Shown here in pieces: positions 38,463-55,772 of a DNA stretch of 64,000 nt. The translations under genes were made by a program, and so were the position numbers. Below the pieces are notes generated by a model. The model did no database searches and was not told the origin of the DNA. It worked only from the letters and a program-made list of their open reading frames with translations. Origin of the DNA: an uncultured Treponema sp. Lineage in GTDB: Bacteria; Spirochaetota; Spirochaetia; Treponematales; Treponemataceae. The stretch lies in the NCBI GenBank assembly GCA_946410085.1, contig CAMJZA010000008.1, forward strand, positions 1 through 64,000, given 5' to 3'. How positions within the stretch are numbered: the first letter of the stretch is position 1; every line of letters begins with the position of its first letter.

Positions 38463-39524
38463 TCACTGCATTTCCCGTATGATTGCGTATATCCGTGCGG
38501 CGGTCTTGGCAAGATCGTATTTTTCCAGCAGGGGCGCGGGATCGGATACCGGCTCGGCCAGCAGCTGCTCAAGGTCTGCATCCGGCCTGTCCGGGTCTAT
38601 GTAGTGGGCTGCCGTTCCGTAGATTTCGGGGAGGCTTGTCCGGTTTGAGACGATGATCTGCGTGCCGCAGGACAGGGCTTCGAGTGGGGGCAGGCCGAAG
38701 CCTTCAAAGTAGGAGGGCAGGACAAAGGCCCGGCAGCGGGAGAGCAGGGCCTTGACCTCGCCGTCATTCAGGTAGCCGGTCATGATGACATTGGGAAGCC
38801 CTTTCAGTTTTTCAAGTTCGGGGGCGACGACGCTGGGCAGGGGCTTCCCCGACACCGCGAACAGTTCATCGGGATACAGGGCGGCATGGTCTGCAATCCA
38901 CTTGAGGTTCTTCCGCTGGGACAGGCTGCCGAGCGTAAAGTAGAAGGGCCTGCCGTTCAGGCGGGGCAGGCGGTCAAAGACGGAAAAATCCGCCGCTATG
39001 TCCCTATAGCCCGTAACGCCCGAGTAGACGACATGGATCCGGTCGGCGGGGGTATGGTAGCGGTCAATGATGGTCTGCTTCGTGTATTCGGAAACCGTCA
39101 GGATGACCCTGGCCCGCCGCGCGATTGTCCGGTACATGATCCTGCTGTACAGGCATATCAGCTTGTCCCGCCGGGAGGTAAAATCCTGCGGGTAGAGGGC
39201 GCAGTAGATGTCATGGATGAACTCGATGCCGGGGGCAAAAAAGGGGCAGGTGTTGGAAAAGTCAAGGCTGAGCCTGCGGCGGGTCAGGACATAGCGCTGA
39301 AAGTCAATCTGCGTCCAGCGGGGAAAGAAGTGTGCCTCCTGCCTGAGCCGGACCGTCCGTATGTTTGTCAGCGGCGGGACGTCCCGTGCATTGGCGGGAA
39401 CGACCAGTTCCATCATGCCCGGGGCAACGAGTCTGTCCAGATGCTGCACGACTTCGACGGCGAGCCGTTCAATGCCGGTCAGGGTATGGCACCATGCTTC
39501 GCCGTTTATCGCGATGACCTTCAT
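38463..39524 (-). CDS. group 1 (GT4-type) glycosyltransferase
   Basis: 353 aa from the ATG at 39524, which overlaps the upstream stop by four bases. The GT-B fold is indicated by the N-terminal TLTGIERLAVEVV, and by LTVSEYTKQTIIDRY, FTLGSLSQRKNLKWI and the donor-site block PSYFEGFGLPPLEALSCGTQ with its E-x7-E motif. These enzymes transfer a sugar from a nucleotide donor to a lipid-linked or polymer acceptor on the cytoplasmic side. It is last in the envelope polymer operon starting at 45050. Sugar and acceptor are unknown. Confidence 0.9.
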   Translation of the reverse strand: MKVIAINGEAWCHTLTGIERLAVEVVQHLDRLVAPGMMELVVPANARDVPPLTNIRTVRLRQEAHFFPRWTQIDFQRYVLTRRRLSLDFSNTCPFFAPGIEFIHDIYCALYPQDFTSRRDKLICLYSRIMYRTIARRARVILTVSEYTKQTIIDRYHTPADRIHVVYSGVTGYRDIAADFSVFDRLPRLNGRPFYFTLGSLSQRKNLKWIADHAALYPDELFAVSGKPLPSVVAPELEKLKGLPNVIMTGYLNDGEVKALLSRCRAFVLPSYFEGFGLPPLEALSCGTQIIVSNRTSLPEIYGTAAHYIDPDRPDADLEQLLAEPVSDPAPLLEKYDLAKTAARIYAIIREMQ

Positions 39525-41065
39525 GCTTCCGGCTCCGCTGCTTCCGGTTCCGGGTTCAGGCATGCTGTCAGGGCGGCGAGCAGGCGGTCGTTGCTCTCCC
39601 GGTCACGGACAAAGATGCTGAGCTGTCCCCTGCCGCTTTCGTCCCGGGTAACGCTGACGAGAAGCTGCCGTTCGTCCAGAAGCCGGGCGGCAAGATTCCG
39701 TGCGGCTTCTTCGGTCGGGGCGGCATCAAGGTTCAGCAGGAAGCGGTTGAACGAAGGCCGCTTGAGCCTGACCTGCGGTACGCCTGCAAGTGCATCCTGC
39801 ATCCTGACGCACTCTTCCTGAAAGACTGCCGTCGATGCGGCATAATCCTTCTTGTACTTGCCGACGGCCTGCATGAAGTATTCCCCGAGCGAGGAGACGC
39901 GGCCTTTTCCCTTGAACGGTCGGAGCAGGGCCGGGTCGTCCGAAAAAAGGAGCCGCATGCTCAGTCCCGGCACTCCGAAGCGCTTTCCCAGGTCAATCAC
40001 ATGCAGGCGGTTCAGGAGCTGTCCGCTCAGGCTGGAAAAGTCCTCGTAGCTTGCATCGTGGGCGTCGTCGGGAAGCGGGGAGCTTTCGGAAAGGACGCAG
40101 ACCCTGCTTTCATCTGTACTGAGGAGTTTTGCGGCAAGTACGTCCAGTTCCCCGGACGATGAGGGGCGGCAGGCTATGCAGGAAGCGAGCGCATAGCGCA
40201 GCTCGGAGAAAAGCCGTTCTGAGGGGAAGAAGGGGTTTGCGTCAACGGTGAAGTCCGCCATGCCGGGGAAGCGCCAGCTGCCGCCCCCCTCCTGCATGAG
40301 CAGGGTGTAGCGGTCCTCCCGGGGAGAAAAGCGCTTTTCTGCAACGGACAGGTCCCCTATGTCGTCAACCTCGTACCAGCGGTTTTCCGCGACGACAAGC
40401 GAGCCCAGGATAGTGGGGATGTTGCCTGCGATTATCTTGAGGACGGTCTCGTAATACTCGTTCCTGCCGTACGTGGAGATGTAGTAGGACAGGAAGGGAA
40501 GGTACATGCTGGTGATGAAGTTTTTGGAGAACTTCCAGATGTTGACGGTCTTGTAGTAGCCTGAGGCATCCTCGTAGCGGAACTCTTTTTTGCCGACCAT
40601 CCCGGTGATGAATCCGTCCTTGTCCAGCAGGCAGCAGGACCCGTCCATCCAGCTTTCAAAGGGGGAAAGGACGGCTGCATTTTCCGCAGGCAGGGCAAGC
40701 AGTTCCCTGATGATGGCCTTGTCGTAGATGAGGTCGCTTTCGAGCAGGAGGGTGTCGTCCCGGGCGAAGATGTCCTTCATGAGGAAAAGCGAGTAGATGT
40801 TGTTCGTTTCTGCATAGACGGGGTTTTCCACGTATTCAAAGCTGAGATCCCCGTCACTGCCGAATGTCCGTGCAATGAAGTCCCTGATGACGTGCGCCTT
40901 GTAGCCCAGTCCGATTGCAATCTGCCTGACACCGGCCTCCCTGAGCGCATTGACGGTGTGTTCCAGCATGGGCTTCCCGTTTATCTGTATCATGCACTTG
41001 GGCATGTCCTGCGTATACTGGGGAATTCTCGTTCCCATCCCTGCGGCGAGAATGATTGCCTGCAT
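39521..41065 (-). CDS. nucleotidyltransferase (LicC/PntC-type) fused to shortened aminotransferase-like domain
   Basis: 514 aa. Residues 1-235 are a nucleotidyltransferase: ILAAGMGTRIPQYTQDMPKC, ETNNIYSLFLMKD and LLESDLIYD with the metal Asp, and YEVDDIGDL at the end. Such domains activate phosphocholine or phosphonates with CTP. From about 255 the sequence follows a class I/II PLP aminotransferase: DFTVDANPF, LGKRFGVPGLSMRLLFSDDP (the K being the probable PLP lysine) and FNRFLLNLDA. It is about 280 residues against roughly 370 for a complete enzyme, with most of the large-domain middle missing. The architecture resembles Treponema PntC, which makes CMP-aminoethylphosphonate. The PLP half may be inactive. 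Confidence 0.78.
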   Translation of the reverse strand: MQAIILAAGMGTRIPQYTQDMPKCMIQINGKPMLEHTVNALREAGVRQIAIGLGYKAHVIRDFIARTFGSDGDLSFEYVENPVYAETNNIYSLFLMKDIFARDDTLLLESDLIYDKAIIRELLALPAENAAVLSPFESWMDGSCCLLDKDGFITGMVGKKEFRYEDASGYYKTVNIWKFSKNFITSMYLPFLSYYISTYGRNEYYETVLKIIAGNIPTILGSLVVAENRWYEVDDIGDLSVAEKRFSPREDRYTLLMQEGGGSWRFPGMADFTVDANPFFPSERLFSELRYALASCIACRPSSSGELDVLAAKLLSTDESRVCVLSESSPLPDDAHDASYEDFSSLSGQLLNRLHVIDLGKRFGVPGLSMRLLFSDDPALLRPFKGKGRVSSLGEYFMQAVGKYKKDYAASTAVFQEECVRMQDALAGVPQVRLKRPSFNRFLLNLDAAPTEEAARNLAARLLDERQLLVSVTRDESGRGQLSIFVRDRESNDRLLAALTACLNPEPEAAEPEA

Positions 41066-42315
41066 TATGCACCTTCCTTTTGTTCTTTTGAGATCATGAA
41101 ATCTGCCACCCGTTCTCCGGCTTCACCCCGGAACATCCATGCCTGGGATTTTGCCCATGCCCTGTTTTCGGCAAGCAGCTGAGAGTCGCTTGCACCCCGC
41201 AGCACGTCGGCGATGCGGGGGAAGTCTTCGCGCTTGAGTTCTATGCCGCATTTTTCGAGCGTTACGAACTGCCAGAGCCGCTTGTCAAGGTCGCCTGCAT
41301 CGCACATCCTCGTGTCCATGTCTGCGTTGACGTACACGACCGGCCGGTCGCAGAGGAACATGTAGTCGAATATAATGGAAGAGAAGTCGGAAATCATGAT
41401 GTCCGAGCGGATCAGGCAGGCGAGGTTGTCGCGGTCGTAGTTCCACTCGACGTTTGCCGCTTCCCGGTACTTTGCTTCCAGCCGCTCAAGCAGGGGAGCT
41501 TCAGACTTCTTTGACTGGGGATGCGGCCGGATGATGATGTGGATGCCGCTTGCGACGAGCGGATCGAGCAGCGCCTCCCCGTAGCGGGAGAGTATGCCGT
41601 TCGGTCCCCATGACGGAGAGAGGAGGACGGTATAGGCATGATCTTCTGCGCTATCCATTGCCCGCATCCGTTCAGCAAGGACATCGAGGTAGGTACAGCC
41701 GACCGTGACCAGCTCCTTTTCCGGGATGCCCCGCTGCTGTTCCAGCGTCCGTATGTCTTCCTTCTGGTAGTCGCCGGTCAGCAGTACGGAGTCAAAGTAG
41801 TCCAGGCCGAAGAGCCGGTAGAGCGTCGCGTCCCCGGTTCCGTGCCTGATGTGGGCGTAGTGGCCCACGTTCTTGCTCCGCTTCCACTGGTATACGTCCA
41901 GTCCCGGCGTCGTCGCGAGTACGACGTCCGCCGTCAGCAGGTTCAGCCGTGCAAAGGCGGCATTCCCGCTGCCGATGTATTCGGGGCGGACAAAGCGGAA
42001 GGGGTTTTCCTTTGTGAGCGGGTCGTCCGGGTCACTGGTCAGGTAGTCCACCGTGACCTGCCGCCGCTCAAAGGCCTGCAGGACCGGGAGGAAGATGTTG
42101 TAGTACTGCCTGCCTTCGTTGTAGATGACGAACTTCTTGCGGTCCTGGGTCAGCGTCCGTGCCTTCCGGCCGGAAAAGAGGAGCTCGAGCTTGAGGAATG
42201 CCGCCCGGAGCAGGAAGAAGAAGGTCGCGACGACGCCGATGAAGACTGAGAAGAGCATGCTGCCCGTGCCGGGGTCAATGTAGAGCAGCGGCGGGTAAAG
42301 GGAGAAGGAGGTCAC
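41065..42315 (-). CDS. CDP-glycerol glycerophosphotransferase-like protein
   Basis: 416 aa from a GTG at 42315 that overlaps the upstream stop by four bases. One N-terminal membrane helix (SMLFSVFIGVVATFFFLLRA) is followed by the TagF-like GT-B domain: VLATTPGLDVYQWKRS, HIRHGTGDATLY, LLSPSWGPNG, HIIIRPHPQSKKSE and SDIMISDFSSIIFDYM. These enzymes transfer glycerol-phosphate or ribitol-phosphate units from CDP-alcohols to a growing polymer. The stop and the next start overlap by one base (TAATG). Together with the neighbouring nucleotidyltransferase it points to a phosphodiester-linked surface polymer in a diderm spirochaete. Confidence 0.88.
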   Translation of the reverse strand: MTSFSLYPPLLYIDPGTGSMLFSVFIGVVATFFFLLRAAFLKLELLFSGRKARTLTQDRKKFVIYNEGRQYYNIFLPVLQAFERRQVTVDYLTSDPDDPLTKENPFRFVRPEYIGSGNAAFARLNLLTADVVLATTPGLDVYQWKRSKNVGHYAHIRHGTGDATLYRLFGLDYFDSVLLTGDYQKEDIRTLEQQRGIPEKELVTVGCTYLDVLAERMRAMDSAEDHAYTVLLSPSWGPNGILSRYGEALLDPLVASGIHIIIRPHPQSKKSEAPLLERLEAKYREAANVEWNYDRDNLACLIRSDIMISDFSSIIFDYMFLCDRPVVYVNADMDTRMCDAGDLDKRLWQFVTLEKCGIELKREDFPRIADVLRGASDSQLLAENRAWAKSQAWMFRGEAGERVADFMISKEQKEGA

Positions 42316-45050
42316 TTTGATGCCTCCTGTATTTCCTGCGTCCAGTTTTCCGGCTTAAAGATGTTGTCTTTCACCCGCCACCAGCTGCCGGGGTCGGCGG
42401 TAAAGACGTAGCTGCTGTCGTTCTGGAAGGGCATGAAGATGTGGTCAGTACACACGAGCGCCCCCCGCTCCTTGTCGGCATTGTCCACGGGCTTTCCGGT
42501 AAAGGGGTTCACCGGATGTTCCACAATGCCTGCAAGTGCAAGCGCGGGAACGTCCGCGTTCGTCATGAAGTCCTCGTTTACCGCAAGCTTCCCGTCCGCA
42601 CCGAAGTCCTTCATCATCAGGAGGGGGTGAAAGTGGCCGGGCTGGATTTTTTCAAACTTGTCGCTCCATTCGTAGCCGGCTTCTGCCCCTGCGGAACTGT
42701 GGTCGGCAACGATGATGATCCTCGTGTTGTCGTAGGCCCCGTTCTCCTTGAGGTAGTCGAAGAACTCGCCCAGCCGGTGCAGGGATGCGGCATTGCTGTG
42801 GTATTCGTAATCCCAGCTGTACGGCGACGGACTCTGTACCGTCACTTCATTGACGGGCCGGTAGTCCGGGTACTGCAGGAAGGCACCGTCATGCGTCGTA
42901 TTGTTGACGAAGTAGGTAAAGCTGTTCGCGCTTTCAGCGTCAAATGCGGTGAGCCGCGGCAGGAAATCGAGGACAGAGTAGCCTTCCAGGAAGGCGTTGA
43001 TGTCCTCGTCGGATGAGTTCGGATCCCAGTAGCCGCCTCCATTGTAGACTGCGGGGCGGAGGGCGAGCGGGACAATGCGGAAGAGGGAGTACCAGAGCAG
43101 GCTGCGCTTGAGCATTTTGCTGGTCGTGTCTATTCCTGCAACGGTCTTGTTTTCCTTATACCACTGGTCAAGATAGACGCCGTCCGTCGAATAGCTTTTG
43201 ACGGCGGGGTAGTCCTTAAAGATGCCCAGGTCTGCAATCCAGCTGTAGTTTGCCCAGGAGGGGTCGGTGATTGTTGCCGACCAGCCGTCTGTCTGCTCGG
43301 TAAAGATGCGGGGCAAAAGGAGGATGGACTCGTTCTGCTTTTCCACGAGGGGCACGTCGTTCCGCCGGTTCTTTGCTTCGGGCGTGTACTCATAGCCGCC
43401 GTAGCAGGGGGAGGCCCCGAGCAGGGTCCATCCGTTGAAAGACACCGTATTGCGGTAGAGCGTAAAGCCCGAAAACTGCTCATACAAAGCCGGGTATTCG
43501 TCAAAGACCGGCACGAGGTAGCGGTTCTGCGCCTTGTCCAGATAGATGACAAGGACGTTCCTGCCGCTGCGGGACAGGTGGAAAATCGGTTTTATTTCCT
43601 TTATGTCTGCGTTGTTATGCCTTGAAACTTCGACATACTGCCGGTAGCCCTGCCGTATCGTGCGGACGTTGACGAGCGAAAGGCAGAGCAGGGCGCCGGT
43701 CAGGAAGCAGCCTGCATAGAGCACGATGCCGGATTTCTTTCGTGCAACGAGGATGCAGACGGCCAGGGCGAGCAGGAGGAGGACCACAAGGTTTGCGAGC
43801 ATCGGCAGGAGGGGAGAGTCCACGTTGGCAACGGTCTTGAAGGTCAGCAGTTTTGACATGATGCCGTAGTTCCCGTGAAAAAGGAAGGCATCTGCCAGCG
43901 CACCCGCGAATCCTGCACAAAAGAGCAGGGCCATCAGGCTCTGGATTTTTTCTTTATACAGGAAGTAGATTAAGAAGGGCCAGACAACGAAAGTGCCGAA
44001 CGCCTGCATGAACGTATTCCTGAGAAAGAAGAAGGGACTCGCATAGCTGTCAATGCCGCTGAATTCCATCGGGGACGATGCAATGAGGAGGGCGGGGATG
44101 AGAAGCCCCGTAAGCAGCCAGAGACCTGCCGATGCGACGGCAAAGAGGGACAGCCGCTTCCTGAACGAGGCTGTGAGGGCCGGACAGACTTCCCGCAAAA
44201 GCCATTCTGCAGCGCGGAGCAGGAGCGGGACAATATAGACGAGCGCCGCAATGCAGCTGGTAAGGACCGCCCGCTTGACGGAGACCGTCCTGCTGATGAA
44301 GAGGTAGGGGATGAAGGCGGTTACTGCGAGGCAGGCGATGGCGTACAGGGTCGCTGCGGGGTGCTTGAGCTTGTAGAAGACGTTCTTTACGAGCGAGAAG
44401 ACGTTGTTGCAGGTCCAGTAGAGGACGAGACCGCAGGGGCTGTTGTACAGGATGGCCACGAAGACGAGGGCAAGCCCGTAGACCTGGAGCTTTTCGCGGA
44501 GCTTGAGTCCCTGCGTATATATCGTGCCCGAGATGAGGTTCACCGCAGTCATGATGAGGGGAAAGAGGTTCAGCGTGAGGCTGCCGATATGCAGGAGGGC
44601 ATCGGGAGAACCCATGTCGCGGATGAAATTGCCGTGGTCGTGCAGGAGGTACATGGGCATGCCTTTCAGCAGTTCCATGGACGACAGGCAGCTGTAGGCG
44701 GCGGTGAAGAAGGGAATCTGTATCAGCAGCCCGAAAGACGAGCGGAGCGCCATAATCGGGTGGTAGCGGCTCTGCCGGTAGTAGGTCGAAAGGATCATGT
44801 ACTGCTCGCTGCCTTTGAACATCTCCTTTATCCGCTTGACCTTCGGTTCGAGCCTGCGCTGGGTGTCGCGTTCCACCTGCTGCCAGTGCTCGGCGACGAT
44901 GTAGAGGGGAAGCGTAAGCAGGCTGACGGCCAGGCTCACCCCGATGATCGAAATGGTCAGGTTGTCGAAAATCCGGTAGCAGAAGCCGAATACGAATTCG
45001 ATTACCTGAACGAGCGGATATATCAGTACTGTGTAAAAAATGCTTCCCAT
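42312..45050 (-). CDS. YidC/Oxa1-like insertase fused to sulfatase/phosphoethanolamine-transferase-like domain
   Basis: 912 aa. Residues 1-230 match YidC/Oxa1: IYPLVQVIEFVFGFCYRIFD, SLLTLPLYIVAEHWQ, RYHPIMALRSSFGLLIQIPF, NSPCGLVLYWTCNNVFSLVK. About seven further membrane helices run to about residue 465. The periplasmic C-terminus is an alkaline-phosphatase-superfamily domain: VLVIYLDKAQNRYLVPVFD, probable nucleophile Thr in NGWTLLGASPCYGGYEYTP, and metal-site ADHSS near residue 790. LtaS and sulfatases share this fold. It is first in the polymer operon, so it may transfer a phospho-group to a lipid-linked glycan rather than insert proteins. No clear ribosome binding site precedes the ATG. 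Confidence 0.85.
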   Translation of the reverse strand: MGSIFYTVLIYPLVQVIEFVFGFCYRIFDNLTISIIGVSLAVSLLTLPLYIVAEHWQQVERDTQRRLEPKVKRIKEMFKGSEQYMILSTYYRQSRYHPIMALRSSFGLLIQIPFFTAAYSCLSSMELLKGMPMYLLHDHGNFIRDMGSPDALLHIGSLTLNLFPLIMTAVNLISGTIYTQGLKLREKLQVYGLALVFVAILYNSPCGLVLYWTCNNVFSLVKNVFYKLKHPAATLYAIACLAVTAFIPYLFISRTVSVKRAVLTSCIAALVYIVPLLLRAAEWLLREVCPALTASFRKRLSLFAVASAGLWLLTGLLIPALLIASSPMEFSGIDSYASPFFFLRNTFMQAFGTFVVWPFLIYFLYKEKIQSLMALLFCAGFAGALADAFLFHGNYGIMSKLLTFKTVANVDSPLLPMLANLVVLLLLALAVCILVARKKSGIVLYAGCFLTGALLCLSLVNVRTIRQGYRQYVEVSRHNNADIKEIKPIFHLSRSGRNVLVIYLDKAQNRYLVPVFDEYPALYEQFSGFTLYRNTVSFNGWTLLGASPCYGGYEYTPEAKNRRNDVPLVEKQNESILLLPRIFTEQTDGWSATITDPSWANYSWIADLGIFKDYPAVKSYSTDGVYLDQWYKENKTVAGIDTTSKMLKRSLLWYSLFRIVPLALRPAVYNGGGYWDPNSSDEDINAFLEGYSVLDFLPRLTAFDAESANSFTYFVNNTTHDGAFLQYPDYRPVNEVTVQSPSPYSWDYEYHSNAASLHRLGEFFDYLKENGAYDNTRIIIVADHSSAGAEAGYEWSDKFEKIQPGHFHPLLMMKDFGADGKLAVNEDFMTNADVPALALAGIVEHPVNPFTGKPVDNADKERGALVCTDHIFMPFQNDSSYVFTADPGSWWRVKDNIFKPENWTQEIQEASK

Positions 45051-45159
45051 ACGTCAAACAAATGCCCGCAGCGTCATGCTGCTGACGGCGTGTACTCTGC
45101 AGTATCGCCGCACGGCTCCATGCGTTTGCCCCAATATAGCACAAAACGTGCTTTTAGTA

Positions 45160-45171
45160 TACAATTATCGA
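45160..45171 (+). promoter_or_regulatory. -10 element six bases before the GHMP kinase ATG
   Basis: TACAAT (45160-45165) is followed by six bases and the ATG at 45172. The -35 is poor and no ribosome binding site is seen. Confidence 0.45.
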
Positions 45172-46164
45172 ATGATTATCACGCAGACGCCATTCAGGAT
45201 GTCCTTCTTCGGCGGAGGGACGGATTTTCCTGCCTTTTACCGGGAGCACGGCGGAGCCGTCCTTTCGACGACCTTTGACAAGTACTGCTATGTAACGGTC
45301 CGTCATCTGCCGCCCTTCTTCGAGTATGAAACGCACCTAACCTATTCAAAGGAAGAGAAGGTACATGCCACGGCAGACATACAGCATCCTGCAATCCGCA
45401 ATGCGATGGAATGGCTCGGCATGCGCGGCATCCGCCTGACCTACGAGAGCGACCTGCCTGCCCGCAGCGGTCTGGGGACCAGTTCTTCGTTCGCCGTCGG
45501 CATGCTGGAAGCCTTCTATGCGCTCAAGGGGCAGTATGCGGACAAGCGGCGACTGGCGGACGATGCGATTTACCTTGAGCGGACCCTCTGTGCCGAATCC
45601 GGCGGCGTGCAGGACCAGATTGCGGCGGCATTCGGCGGTCTGAACCGCATTGATTTCTCCCGCGACGGATATTCCGTCAATCCCGTCATCATTTCCCCCG
45701 AACGCAAGCGCCTGCTCAACAAGTCCCTCATGCTCTTTTTTACCGGTTTTTCCCGCTTTTCCTCCGACATCCAGAAGGGAACGGAACAGTCCATGAAGGA
45801 TAAGACGGACCAGCTCCTTGAAATGTACCGGCTGGTCGATGAGGCGGAGCAGGTTCTGGTCAATAAGGAGCGGGATTTGGACGACTTCGGCCGCCTGCTC
45901 GACTATACCTGGAAGCTCAAGCGGGGCATTGCGGGCGGCATTTCCACCGGCTCCATCGATGCCCAGTACCAGCGGGGGCTTGACGCGGGGGCGCTCGGCG
46001 GCAAGCTGCTGGGGGCAGGCGGCGGCGGCTTCCTGCTCTTCTACGTACCCGAGTCCTGGCAGGCCGCCGTCAGGGAGGCGATGAAAGACCTCCTCTATGT
46101 GCCCTTTTCGTTTGAAAACGACGGTACGAAGGTCATCCACTATACGCCCGAAGAGGACGCATGA
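45172..46164 (+). CDS. GHMP kinase, D-glycero-D-manno-heptose 7-phosphate kinase type (HddA-like)
   Basis: 330 aa from the ATG at 45172. GHMP motifs: TPFRMSFFGGGTDFPAFY at the N-terminus, the phosphate-binding LPARSGLGTSSSFAVG, the catalytic-region ESGGVQDQIAAAFGG, and the C-terminal GKLLGAGGGGFLLFY. Close relatives phosphorylate heptose-7-phosphate (HddA) or fucose for GDP-sugar synthesis. It is divergent from the polymer operon, so supply of an activated sugar for that polymer is a fair guess. Its stop overlaps the recG start by four bases. Confidence 0.88.
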   Translation: MIITQTPFRMSFFGGGTDFPAFYREHGGAVLSTTFDKYCYVTVRHLPPFFEYETHLTYSKEEKVHATADIQHPAIRNAMEWLGMRGIRLTYESDLPARSGLGTSSSFAVGMLEAFYALKGQYADKRRLADDAIYLERTLCAESGGVQDQIAAAFGGLNRIDFSRDGYSVNPVIISPERKRLLNKSLMLFFTGFSRFSSDIQKGTEQSMKDKTDQLLEMYRLVDEAEQVLVNKERDLDDFGRLLDYTWKLKRGIAGGISTGSIDAQYQRGLDAGALGGKLLGAGGGGFLLFYVPESWQAAVREAMKDLLYVPFSFENDGTKVIHYTPEEDA

Positions 46165-52750: not shown

Positions 52751-54184
52751 ATGTCCCTGACCAGCCTCCGATTCCTGTACTTCCTTGCCGCCGTCATAGC
52801 GGCATGTTTCATTCTGCCCCGCAAGCTGCGGAACCCAATCCTGCTCGCGGCGAGCCTGTACTTTTACTGGGCCTGGAAGCCTTGGGCTCTGGCGGTGCTG
52901 GCCTTCTCGGTGACAAGCTCCTATATCCTTGCCCTGCTCATCGGAAAGGCACGGGAGAATCCGCCAAAGGGGGCAGGCCCGCGGCGGGGCAAGGCCCTGT
53001 TCGTCTTTTCGGTCGTCCTGCAGGCCGCCCTGCTCTGCCTGTTCAAGTACCTGACCCCGCGAGAGCTTGGGAAGCTCTCGCTCGTCATGCCCCTGGGCCT
53101 TTCCTTTTACAGCTTCCAGATCATCGCCGCCCTGTCCGACGTGTACACGGGCAAGGCAAAAGCCGAGCGGAACTTCATTGACTGGGCTCTGTTCGTCTCG
53201 TTCTTCCCCAAAATCATCGAGGGGCCGATCGAGCGGACGGGCTTCCTCCCGCAGCTCAAGGAGCCGCCCGCCTTCCAGTGGGAGACATTCAGGCTGGGGG
53301 CGGTACGCTTCCTCTGGGGCATCTTCGTCAAGCTCGTCATAACGGAGCGGCTTGCCCTGGTTTCCGCGCATATTGACAGCTACTATATCTATATGGAAGG
53401 CTACCTGCTTGCGGTGGGGATTGTCGCCTACTCCCTGCAGCTCTACACGGACTTCGCCGCCTACACGAGCATGGCGCGGGGAGCCGCCGGGATGCTCGGC
53501 TACGGGCTGTCGGAAAACTTCGCCCGGCCCTATTTCGCGACCGGCATCAAGGACTTCTGGAGGCGCTGGCACATCTCCCTGTCCTCATGGCTCCGCGACT
53601 ACATCTACATACCGCTCGGGGGCAGCCGCTGCCCCCGAGGCCGCAAGTACCTGAACGTCCTCGTGACCTTCCTCGTGTCGGGAATCTGGCACGGGGCGAG
53701 CTGGAAGTTCGCTGTCTGGGGGCTGCTGCACGGAATCCTGCAGGTCGCGGAAGACCTGCTCCGCCCCGCCCGCGACAGGCTCTGCACCACCCTGAAAGTG
53801 GACAGGACATCCTTCTCGCACCGCCTGCTCGCCAGCCTGTGGACATTCGCCCTGGTCAGCGCCCTCTGGCTCTTTTTCTGGCGGGAGTCCCCCAAGTCCG
53901 TGCTGGACTACCTGACATGGACATGCCGCTTCAAGAACTACCCGGAAATCTTCGAGGGCGGGCTTATGCGGCTGGGGCTGACGCATTTTGATTTTGCAGT
54001 GCTGGCCGTCTCCCTGGGGATGTTCACCTGCCGGTCAGTCATGGCCGAGCGGGGGTGCGACTGCAAGACCTGGCTTTTCCGTCAGGGCCTCTGGGCACGG
54101 ATGGCCTTTTACTGGACCCAGCTGCTGCTCATCGCATTCTCGGTCAGCTCAAGCGCAAAGGAGTTCGTCTATGCCGCGTTCTAA
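52751..54184 (+). CDS. MBOAT-family O-acyltransferase (AlgI/DltB-like)
   Basis: 477 aa with about eleven membrane helices. The MBOAT core is clear: MPLGLSFYSFQIIAALSDVY, FPKIIEGPIERTGF, FARPYFATGIKDFWRRWHIS and the catalytic His in VSGIWHGASWKF (about residue 315). These enzymes pass acyl groups across the inner membrane to a periplasmic partner that O-acetylates or D-alanylates a surface polymer. Its stop overlaps the start of the SGNH-type partner gene. AAGG lies upstream of the ATG. Acyl donor and polymer are not known. Confidence 0.93.
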   Translation: MSLTSLRFLYFLAAVIAACFILPRKLRNPILLAASLYFYWAWKPWALAVLAFSVTSSYILALLIGKARENPPKGAGPRRGKALFVFSVVLQAALLCLFKYLTPRELGKLSLVMPLGLSFYSFQIIAALSDVYTGKAKAERNFIDWALFVSFFPKIIEGPIERTGFLPQLKEPPAFQWETFRLGAVRFLWGIFVKLVITERLALVSAHIDSYYIYMEGYLLAVGIVAYSLQLYTDFAAYTSMARGAAGMLGYGLSENFARPYFATGIKDFWRRWHISLSSWLRDYIYIPLGGSRCPRGRKYLNVLVTFLVSGIWHGASWKFAVWGLLHGILQVAEDLLRPARDRLCTTLKVDRTSFSHRLLASLWTFALVSALWLFFWRESPKSVLDYLTWTCRFKNYPEIFEGGLMRLGLTHFDFAVLAVSLGMFTCRSVMAERGCDCKTWLFRQGLWARMAFYWTQLLLIAFSVSSSAKEFVYAAF

Positions 54185-55772
54185 TCGGATACTCAAGATC
54201 CTGCTGATTGTCTTTCTCTTTTTCCTTCCGGTACTCGCACTCAAAGTGTATATATGGAAGTATCCGATGAGGTGGTGTAATGAGACCGGAGTCAAATTCG
54301 TCTGGGCAAGGAACTTCGTCAGGGAAAAACATGAAGACTATTACCGGATCATCACTATCGGAGACTCTGACACGAACGCGGCATTTGCCCCGGAACTGCT
54401 CGGCGAGGATGTACTGGATTTAGCCGTTTATGCATCGAATCCCAGTGACGCATATTATGTCTTTAAGGAATATCTGTCTCATAACCAGATTCCCGAAACA
54501 GTTTATATTGCTTTTTATCCCTGGCATTTCCGGTATATTTCCCCGAATGCCATAATTACCGGCACTGCTGTTATGACAAATATGCTTAACCTGACAGATG
54601 AACTTGAATATCTTTCATATACAAGAAAATATGGAAAGATACAGCGAAAGGATGTTAAGGCGTATCTGGGTTATCGTTTTTTCTCTATAAAAGAGTACTG
54701 GGCATATTTAAGGAATTCCGGTTATGAAAAACGTTTCATTGCAAATAAGACGGCACTCTCAAAGCAGAATTTTCATAGGGGAACCGCTACAACGAGGTGT
54801 GTAGCGGTATGGAATCCACAAATAGAATCAATTCTCAATTATCTATATGGAACAGAGACAGAGGAAAATTCTGCTCCTAAGAATTGGCGGCATTTCACGG
54901 TTTCCGATTTACAGGATTTTTACTACAGGAAACTTCTTGAACTTTGTCGTGATCGGGGCATTTGCATCCGGATTCTGGCATTACCCCAGATGTATGCAAA
55001 TTACGGGGAAACGTACTGGGATGAGTTTACGTCCTACCACGAAGAAATACTTTCCGACTATGAAAATTGGACGCTTGCTCCCTCCCAAGACCTTGTTGCA
55101 GGCACAAGCGGTTTTACTGCCGGTGACTTCGCGGATTCCCACCACATGAACAACCACGGCTCGCTCAAGTTCTCCCGCATGATCCGCGAGCGTTACCCGG
55201 AGGACTTCGCCGAGGGGGCGGTCATGCCGGTCAGCGATAACACGCTCGCGGGGCTTGAGGACTACCTCTGTATGGAAAACCAGGCGGACAAAATCCTCCG
55301 GTGGATTCAGGGGACGGGCAGGGCGGAAGGCGGCGTCCCCCTGTCCGCCCTCCTCGTCACGCGGAACGGCCACACGTTGGAAGAGGACTGGAGACTTGCC
55401 GCCGTGCTGGGGGAAGAATACCCTGCCTATGCGGAGGGCCTTGTTGCATGGGGAAGCGGTGATGCTGCCTGCTACTTCTCCGGGGAGACCCCAGTCTCCA
55501 TCTCTGGAGACAACCGCACGGCCACGCTTTCCTGTGACGGCGGGGCGGCATCGCTCAGCTTCTCGGACGGGGCCGTCAGCCTTTCCGCCTTTGACGACGG
55601 CAGGAAGTTCCGCGCCCGCCTCCATACGACGGAGGACGGACATCCCCGCACGCAGGAGCTTTCCGCCCCCGACGGCGCGGACCTTTACGCCATCGTCCTC
55701 AACACCCGCAGCGGCAGGCTCGTCACCTGCAAGTCCTTCCGCTTCACCGGCTGGAGCTACCGCCTGCTGTAG
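54171..55772 (+). CDS. SGNH-hydrolase-like (DltD/AlgJ-type) acylation partner of the MBOAT protein
   Basis: 533 aa from the ATG at 54171, which overlaps the MBOAT stop by 14 bases. One N-terminal membrane helix (ILKILLIVFLFFLPVLALKV) anchors a periplasmic domain. The nucleophile block is TIGDSDTNAAF (Ser about residue 66), and the distal DFADSHHMNNHG near 320 supplies the D-x-x-H pair. A C-terminal region of about 190 residues is beta-rich. Bases about 54430-55080 are much AT-richer than both ends of the same gene, so the central part may be recombinant. Probable function: final transfer of acyl groups onto a surface polymer. Confidence 0.85.
   Translation: MPRSNRILKILLIVFLFFLPVLALKVYIWKYPMRWCNETGVKFVWARNFVREKHEDYYRIITIGDSDTNAAFAPELLGEDVLDLAVYASNPSDAYYVFKEYLSHNQIPETVYIAFYPWHFRYISPNAIITGTAVMTNMLNLTDELEYLSYTRKYGKIQRKDVKAYLGYRFFSIKEYWAYLRNSGYEKRFIANKTALSKQNFHRGTATTRCVAVWNPQIESILNYLYGTETEENSAPKNWRHFTVSDLQDFYYRKLLELCRDRGICIRILALPQMYANYGETYWDEFTSYHEEILSDYENWTLAPSQDLVAGTSGFTAGDFADSHHMNNHGSLKFSRMIRERYPEDFAEGAVMPVSDNTLAGLEDYLCMENQADKILRWIQGTGRAEGGVPLSALLVTRNGHTLEEDWRLAAVLGEEYPAYAEGLVAWGSGDAACYFSGETPVSISGDNRTATLSCDGGAASLSFSDGAVSLSAFDDGRKFRARLHTTEDGHPRTQELSAPDGADLYAIVLNTRSGRLVTCKSFRFTGWSYRLL

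Follow-up and report, generated by a model that had tools for sequence, protein, structure and literature searches.

A YidC-like protein fused to an alkaline-phosphatase-superfamily domain in Treponema: a candidate head-group transferase for cell-surface decoration

We analysed a stretch of 64,000 nucleotides (nt), hereafter the window, from an uncultured Treponema sp. (positions 1 to 64,000 of contig CAMJZA010000008.1, assembly GCA_946410085.1). It encodes a protein of 912 amino acids (aa) in which a YidC/Oxa1-like core is joined, through additional membrane helices, to an alkaline-phosphatase-superfamily (AP) domain. The features of this fusion protein and of the neighbouring genes are listed in Table 1. 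The original prediction had placed the fusion first in an operon with a CDP-glycerol transferase. Its position is confirmed by the short overlap with the following gene. The identity of that partner, here called GPT, is less certain: it matches Glyphos_transf (PF04464) only in part (profile positions 226–298 of 367, 39.3 bits), and a phmmer search of the PDB gave no solved relative at E values up to 1.

Table 1. Features of the fusion gene and its neighbours (window coordinates)
Feature	Position	Strand	Evidence or remark
Fusion protein, 912 aa: YidC-like core, seven membrane helices and AP domain	42312..45050	-	open reading frame (ORF), Pfam, alignment, AlphaFold2, Foldseek
YidC/Oxa1-like core, residues 1–226 (Pfam 60KD_IMP 33–226)	44373..45050	-	
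Ser43 codon, site of the insertase groove Arg/Lys (E. coli R366; Lys409 of the genome's own housekeeping YidC)	44922..44924	-	
Trp212 codon, site of E. coli Y517 / S. mutans W234	44415..44417	-	
Middle membrane part, residues 227–480	43611..44372	-	model, loop charges
Extracytoplasmic AP-superfamily domain, residues 485–912	42315..43598	-	
GPT, Glyphos_transf-like, 416 aa, N-terminal hydrophobic stretch, motif YIDPGTGSML	41065..42315	-	4-nt overlap with fusion stop
Cytidylyltransferase-like domain and shortened class I/II aminotransferase/decarboxylase-like domain	39521..41065	-	
GT4 glycosyltransferase, last gene of putative operon	38463..39563	-	
Divergent GHMP-type kinase (ORF 45040–46164)	45172..46164	+	start 45172 inferred by eye

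The predicted architecture was borne out by several lines of evidence. Pfam detects 60KD_IMP with 74.2 bits (cut-off 35) and Sulfatase, over residues 677–834, with 26.7 bits (cut-off 25). AlphaFold2, supplied with 109 aligned full-length homologues, yielded a model of both halves and the helices between them with a mean predicted local distance difference test score (pLDDT) of 91.5 and a predicted template modelling score (pTM) of 0.86. Foldseek matched the N-terminal part of this model to E. coli YidC (6al2; root-mean-square deviation (rmsd) 3.8 over 214 columns) and the C-terminal part to PbgA, MCR-1, LtaS and EptA, corresponding to an Oxa1-type and an AP-type fold. A misassembly at the junction, or an artefact of gene prediction, can be ruled out, since 109 unique full-length proteins align across the junction. 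Of the 36 columns that are invariant among these 109 fusions, 19 fall in the YidC part, two in the middle part and 15 in the AP part, although retrieval of the homologues with two conserved peptides biases conservation there; with 19 invariant columns in its 226 residues, the YidC part does not appear to be decaying. Of 574 relatives, the best 80 were kept, representing 78 distinct loci; L083 and L001–L005 were set aside as overlapping copies, and a second structure model was based on 81 of the 109 alignment rows. The survey sampled the phylum of the window's own genome. Fusions are also found in Clostridia, which come from a single scan and are among the best 80 of 574 relatives. None of the 17 NCBIfam matches listed is a family spanning the whole fusion protein, and Rfam gave no match at the gathering score across the window.

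The fusion is not the main insertase of the cell, a possibility that the original prediction had left open. Scanning the 3.64-Mb assembly with PF02096 revealed five places, namely one ordinary yidC (C14, 197.8 bits) and four fusions (the window, C56 and two in tandem in C70). A separate, stronger yidC was also present in six of seven other genomes reached via homologous loci; in the seventh (G125, the genome of L079) PF02096 matches the fusion only, perhaps because this assembly is incomplete. The core of the fusion furthermore differs from insertases at the groove. Ser43 aligns with the conserved groove Arg of E. coli YidC, and the same position holds Ser in 57, Thr in 37 and Asn in 15 of the 109 fusions and a charged residue in none, with Lys at this position in the genome's own housekeeping YidC. 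All 109 fusions carry Trp at the place of E. coli Y517.

In the model, the middle part consists of seven helices (residues 231–253, 258–288, 296–325, 340–364, 367–389, 414–436 and 440–478). The predicted inner loops are rich in Lys and Arg (2.5 per 9 residues at 224–232, 2.7 per 8 at 435–442), and most of the outer loops contain few (0.3 per 17 at 325–341, 1.4 per 26 at 389–415), which indicates that the AP domain lies outside the cytoplasm; the outer loop that follows this charge rule least is 252–259, with 1.1 Lys+Arg per 8. Over residues 495–912, the AP domain gives Z-scores of about 18 to 20 with many AP-superfamily chains. Asp505, Thr542, His720, Asp783 and His784 are invariant in all 109 fusions; judged by motif and not by superposition of the sites, we take them to be the metal ligands, the nucleophile and the substrate His of EptA/LtaS enzymes.

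GPT accompanies the fusion almost without exception. Among 389 genomes of the phylum (thresholds E 1e-60 for the fusion profile and E 1e-30 for GPT), the specialised YidC, fused or free, was found in 122 and GPT in 120; both occurred in 120, GPT alone in none and neither in 267, and since genomes are related, the 120 co-occurrences are not 120 independent events. Each partner is present in 33 of 150 genera. The two genomes with a specialised YidC lacking GPT are G388, in which a contig end cuts the fusion, and G141, an assembly of 250 contigs. A first draw of 120 genomes had shown both partners in the same 22, one of which (G072) has the free form. Matches to the YidC part only, G072 aside, stood at 4.4e-38 or weaker in that draw, so ordinary YidCs should not reach 1e-60. 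Locally, GPT is found at 63 of the 80 loci whose fusion measures 400 aa or more and at 24 of the 28 loci with at least 6 kb on each side; an activation gene, as described below, is present at 20 of these 28. GPT lies within 300 bp of 54 of 120 fusions, on the same strand in all 54 cases. It is directly downstream of the fusion in 41 pairs, in 17 of which the fusion ends in ATGA. Fusions outnumber GPT 2:1 at 16 loci, 3:1 at five and 5:1 at one, and the ratio is 1:2 at two. Several fusions per GPT are what one would predict for a GPT that supplies one shared donor and for fusions that select the acceptors.

Two types of activation module were recognised in the gene clusters. The first is a 2-aminoethylphosphonate (AEP) set, consisting of phosphoenolpyruvate (PEP) mutase with a CTP_transf_like domain, a thiamine-diphosphate decarboxylase and a nucleotidyltransferase–AEP transaminase. 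In the second, a nucleotidyltransferase is joined to a class I/II aminotransferase-fold domain. Activation fusions in 82 mapped sources comprise 21 of NTP-transferase with class I/II aminotransferase, 17 of NTP-transferase with AEP transaminase and 16 of CTP_transf_like with PEP mutase. In the window's own genome, PEP mutase gave one match, and the C70 cluster contains PEP mutase together with an end-to-end relative of T. denticola PntC (6pd1, 915 bits). AEP is the phosphonate analogue of ethanolamine phosphate, and both modules may therefore feed the same kind of head group. The nearest solved relative of the class I/II domain is a Thr-phosphate-decarboxylase-like enzyme (6oux, E 4.7e-51), and Campylobacter Cj1436 converts Ser-phosphate to ethanolamine phosphate by decarboxylation (PMC12409886, partial text). 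The class I/II-type module thus presumably supplies an ethanolamine-phosphate-like head group.

The window itself carries a variant of this second module. Its nucleotidyltransferase domain has LicC (1jyk) and PntC (6pd1) as nearest solved relatives, and in its clade the aminotransferase-like domain is shortened by about 85 residues. Where the presumed pyridoxal-phosphate Lys aligns, the residue is kept in the window and changed in L011, L065 and L013. This shortened domain is either decaying or re-purposed. Frequent neighbours in the mapped clusters are heptose genes (GHMP kinase, SIS, nucleotidyltransferase-HAD), GT4 and Bac_transf, which point to surface glycans; relatives of the window's GHMP-type kinase adjoin heptose genes in other clusters. 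In G018, a single-contig genome from the same family, two tandem fusions and GPT are located beside Bac_transf and other genes (L088, 7036–13700). No activation gene was recognised beside the fusions in this stretch, and no PEP mutase was found in that genome at E 1e-35. Further along the window (52751–55772), an MBOAT acyltransferase adjoins a DUF1574 protein, and this pair looks like a surface acylation unit.

Trees labelled by activation module relate the partners to this chemistry. The tree of 47 GPTs requires 9 changes, compared with a shuffled mean of 20.6, and the tree of 66 fusions 19 compared with 28.6 (0 of 200 shuffles as low in either case). GPT type tracks the activation module more closely than fusion type does. 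Both counts would fit a GPT that reads the activated head group and fusions that read the acceptors, and near relatives inflate such counts. Rows without an activation gene within 8 kb were left off (42 of 108 fusions, 16 of 63 GPTs). The cluster L075, which has PEP mutase, was labelled NTP-only on the GPT tree and, by hand, AEP on the fusion tree.

The YidC-like and AP parts occur fused, side by side, and re-fused with a different enzyme. At locus L091 (G072), one row of genes encodes PEP mutase, decarboxylase, PntC-transaminase, a free YidC-like protein of 238 aa, GPT and a free membrane protein of 607 aa. The YidC-like protein shares 40% identity with the window's core, and G072 holds another YidC besides it. 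The 607-aa protein matches Sulfatase (34.8 bits) and represents a second AP-type subfamily; phmmer gave no useful match for it in the PDB. L095 (G149) has the same gene set, with the phosphonate genes on the opposite strand and an AP-type protein resembling that of L091 (748.7 bits). At L096 (G243), a free YidC-like gene of 229 aa overlaps GPT, and a separate AP protein of 721 aa is of the type seen in the fusion (187 bits). In G306 (L099), one cluster pairs the usual fusion with GPT, and another encodes a protein of 850 aa in which a YidC-like core is joined to an L091-type AP domain, located between GPT and PEP mutase. The groove charge is absent in all YidC-like cores of L091, L095, L096 and L099.

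Further copies of the fusion were noted. The rumen Treponema T. bryantii XBD1002 is among the carriers of the cluster (L046). L021 (4766–6238 and 6238–7467) was rejected as a natural split, because its first piece ends unlike the family and looks like a frameshift. Remnants of a decayed fusion copy lie directly upstream of an intact fusion at L040 (10007–11132). Ahead of the C56 fusion (L007, 3052–6078), on the same strand, lie genes for an LptF/LptG-like protein of 634 aa and a membrane protein of 368 aa, which hints at a connection with the export of lipids or glycolipids. On a clostridial contig (L078, L083), at least five fusions stand in a row with only one GPT. A form of about 1000 aa, in which the profile match is broken near position 255, occurs in several copies per genome in G020, G053, G058, G078, G086, G098 and G106 (family f15; for example L089, 4491–7481).

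The architecture, the invariant AP-type residues, the topology read from loop charges, the pairing with GPT, the clustering with activation genes and the split and re-fused versions are observations. It is highly probable that they represent a conserved module for head-group decoration, in which the YidC-like part has a non-housekeeping role. We further propose that the 912-aa protein transfers head groups while bound to the membrane, within a chain of four steps; the chain as a whole we give a probability of about 0.5. Cytosolic enzymes would first make a small phosphonate or phosphate and activate it with cytidine triphosphate (CTP), giving cytidine monophosphate (CMP)-AEP in phosphonate clusters and probably CDP-ethanolamine or a near relative in clusters with the decarboxylase-like fusion. 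GPT, positioned on the inner side of the membrane, would then take the head group off the nucleotide and load it onto a lipid. The YidC-like core, its groove charge lost, would let the head-group lipid cross the membrane. Finally, the outer AP domain would accept the head group on Thr542 and hand it on to a glycan or glycolipid of the cell surface. The reactions of the last three steps, the carrier lipid and the acceptor are inferred. Passage of the lipid via the YidC-like core is suggested by its Oxa1 fold, by the near-invariant association with GPT and by the scrambling of lipids in liposomes, in vitro, by E. coli YidC and other Oxa1 proteins (PMC10491306, partial text). More tentatively, and somewhat less probably than the chain itself, a specialised YidC/Oxa1 branch may have turned from insertase into carrier of lipid-linked head groups, as part of a three-part machine with a GPT loader and an AP transferase that has been fused at least twice with different enzymes and does the last steps of surface phosphonate or ethanolamine-phosphate tailoring.

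Several findings weigh against this chain. Its reactions are proposals drawn from genes and models, and GPT could transfer the head group straight to a glycan. Phosphonate genes (PEP mutase/PntC) are missing from the window's own cluster, whose decarboxylase-like domain is shortened; the activation gene is absent at 8 of the 28 well-flanked loci, and PEP mutase occurs in only 8 of 22 genomes with the pair, versus 12 of 98 without it (Fisher p 0.011, relatedness ignored). Modelled alone and compared with the PDB, the middle part, a possible counterpart of the five-helix membrane domain of EptA/PbgA, gave no convincing structural match, PbgA (6v8q) appearing only at Z 4.1; with the fusion model, PbgA aligned over residues 290–907 at an rmsd of 13.7. 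The second AP subfamily is weakly recognised: the L095 protein matches no Pfam family, and in a profile comparison the L091 protein did not align to the AP domain of the fusion. The peptide-based retrieval noted above should also be kept in mind.

The strongest alternative, which we nevertheless regard as unlikely, is that the core still handles proteins, inserting or chaperoning specifically the attached AP enzyme and GPT, with the AP domain using an ordinary phospholipid donor. The retained Oxa1 fold and the Trp at the Y517 place would suit this role, as would the free YidC-like genes that adjoin GPT. A positive charge in the groove is described as strictly conserved in insertases, but E. 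coli YidC tolerates loss of R366 when residue 517 is aromatic or hydrophilic, and R366A or R366N complements if residue 517 is Trp (PMC8920935, partial text). Loss of the charge is thus no proof of lost insertase activity, which is a further point against the proposed chain. In contrast, S. mutans YidC2, which has Trp at that place, depends on its Arg (same source). With the one protein tolerating the loss and the other not, the missing charge is evidence against insertase work but no proof. The Lys of the housekeeping YidC, and the presence of such a separate YidC here and in six of the seven other genomes, also speak against a protein-handling core, and such strict co-occurrence with a Glyphos_transf-like enzyme would not be needed for an insertase that serves one client.

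Somewhat less probable again is a core that serves as a membrane platform docking GPT, whose product would be handed to the AP domain while the lipid crosses spontaneously or by another flippase. The near-strict co-occurrence and the short gene overlaps in many pairs agree with docking, and the invariant residues of the core could be an interface; however, a simple dock need not keep a whole Oxa1 fold, and co-occurrence cannot separate docking from transport. It is improbable, in our view, that the AP domain is a hydrolytic enzyme, acting as a phosphodiesterase or phosphatase to trim or recycle head groups or the carrier lipid. Phosphonate monoester hydrolases and sulfatases are among the best structural Z-scores, and a phosphonate monoester hydrolase is among the sequence matches, but the best full-length Foldseek matches are the membrane proteins PbgA and MCR-1, then LtaS, and several paralogous fusions per GPT suit acceptor choice better than recycling. 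A teichoic-acid-like operon, with GPT as CDP-glycerol transferase and the fusion as LtaS-like polymerase of glycerol-phosphate, would fit the Glyphos_transf match, the structural match to LtaS and the occurrence in Clostridia, but is very improbable, and was dropped after the test for glycerol-3-phosphate cytidylyltransferase: three of 120 genomes reached the cut-off, none of them with a fusion (best score in the window's own genome 112 bits, cut-off 165.4), the clusters activate AEP or an ethanolamine-phosphate-like group, and GPT is only a partial family match lacking a solved relative in the PDB search. A scan of the same genome for CDP-alcohol phosphatidyltransferase gave two matches and no lead.

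The membrane-bound head-group transferase thus remains our preferred interpretation. It bears on the suggestion of the original prediction that a YidC scaffold serves a phospho- or sulfo-transferase, in a polymer operon, instead of protein insertion. Of these, a scaffold for a phospho-transferase now reads best: it gains from the split versions and from a second type of fusion, as well as from the missing groove charge and from the housekeeping YidC encoded elsewhere in the genome. A loss of protein insertion by the YidC part is something we infer. Sulfo-transfer is without support. Nor is there any sign of a glycerol-phosphate polymer: the activation genes in the clusters are those for AEP or an ethanolamine-phosphate-like group.

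The proposal is of interest for the tailoring of cell surfaces. Work on the discovery of PntC called the steps after C–P bond formation in surface phosphonate tailoring enigmatic; it covers activation to CMP-AEP, with LicD-like phosphotransferases near the genes studied, and its available text does not contain the terms YidC, sulfatase or alkaline phosphatase (PMC6697681, partial text). The open-access literature searched gave no description of a YidC–AP fusion and no answer for the transfer step after CMP-AEP, and a search in it aimed at Ser-phosphate decarboxylase returned no paper. An article on SecY/YidC evolution (PMC8675477) has no occurrence of sulfatase, Treponema or spirochaet-. Both folds are known, and their combination, the partner and the setting appear undescribed in the literature searched. 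The module may be a candidate for a missing step in cell-surface decoration. It offers a concrete candidate, with a defined gene set, for the open transfer step of surface phosphonate tailoring, and there is a real chance that it answers this question. It would also be a natural case of an Oxa1 fold acting on lipids, which insertases have been shown to do in vitro (PMC10491306, partial text). The pair is also common, being present in 120 of 389 genomes of the phylum and in some Clostridia (among the best 80 of 574 relatives).

Compared with known systems, the module shares parts with each. The Pnt (phosphonyl tailoring) pathway (T. denticola PntC; PMC6697681, partial text) uses the same activation genes as many clusters, including C70 of the window's own genome, and the window's own cluster lacks them. 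GPT shares PF04464 in part with the teichoic acid glycerophosphotransferases TagF/TarL, but its match is weaker and shorter, it has an extra N-terminal hydrophobic stretch with YIDPGTGSML, and the window's own genome has no CDP-glycerol synthase at the cut-off. The glycosylphosphatidylinositol (GPI) ethanolamine-phosphate transferases PIG-N/O/G combine a nucleotide-activated head group, a phospholipid donor and several AP-superfamily transferases for different acceptor sites. Compared by working logic and not by sequence, they resemble the proposed chain; they are eukaryotic and have no YidC part. The core resembles YidC/Oxa1/Alb3 insertases, such as E. coli YidC and S. mutans YidC2, in its 60KD_IMP sequence family and fold. 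It differs from them in lacking the groove Arg/Lys (0/109) and a large preceding periplasmic domain, and in being fused to, or located beside, an AP-type enzyme in addition to a housekeeping YidC. EptA/MCR-1, LtaS and PbgA (YejM) give the best full-length structural matches and resemble the fusion in their membrane helices followed by an extracytoplasmic AP-fold domain with AP-type residues; to this arrangement the fusion adds an entire YidC/Oxa1 core, two further helices and a near-obligate Glyphos_transf-like partner.

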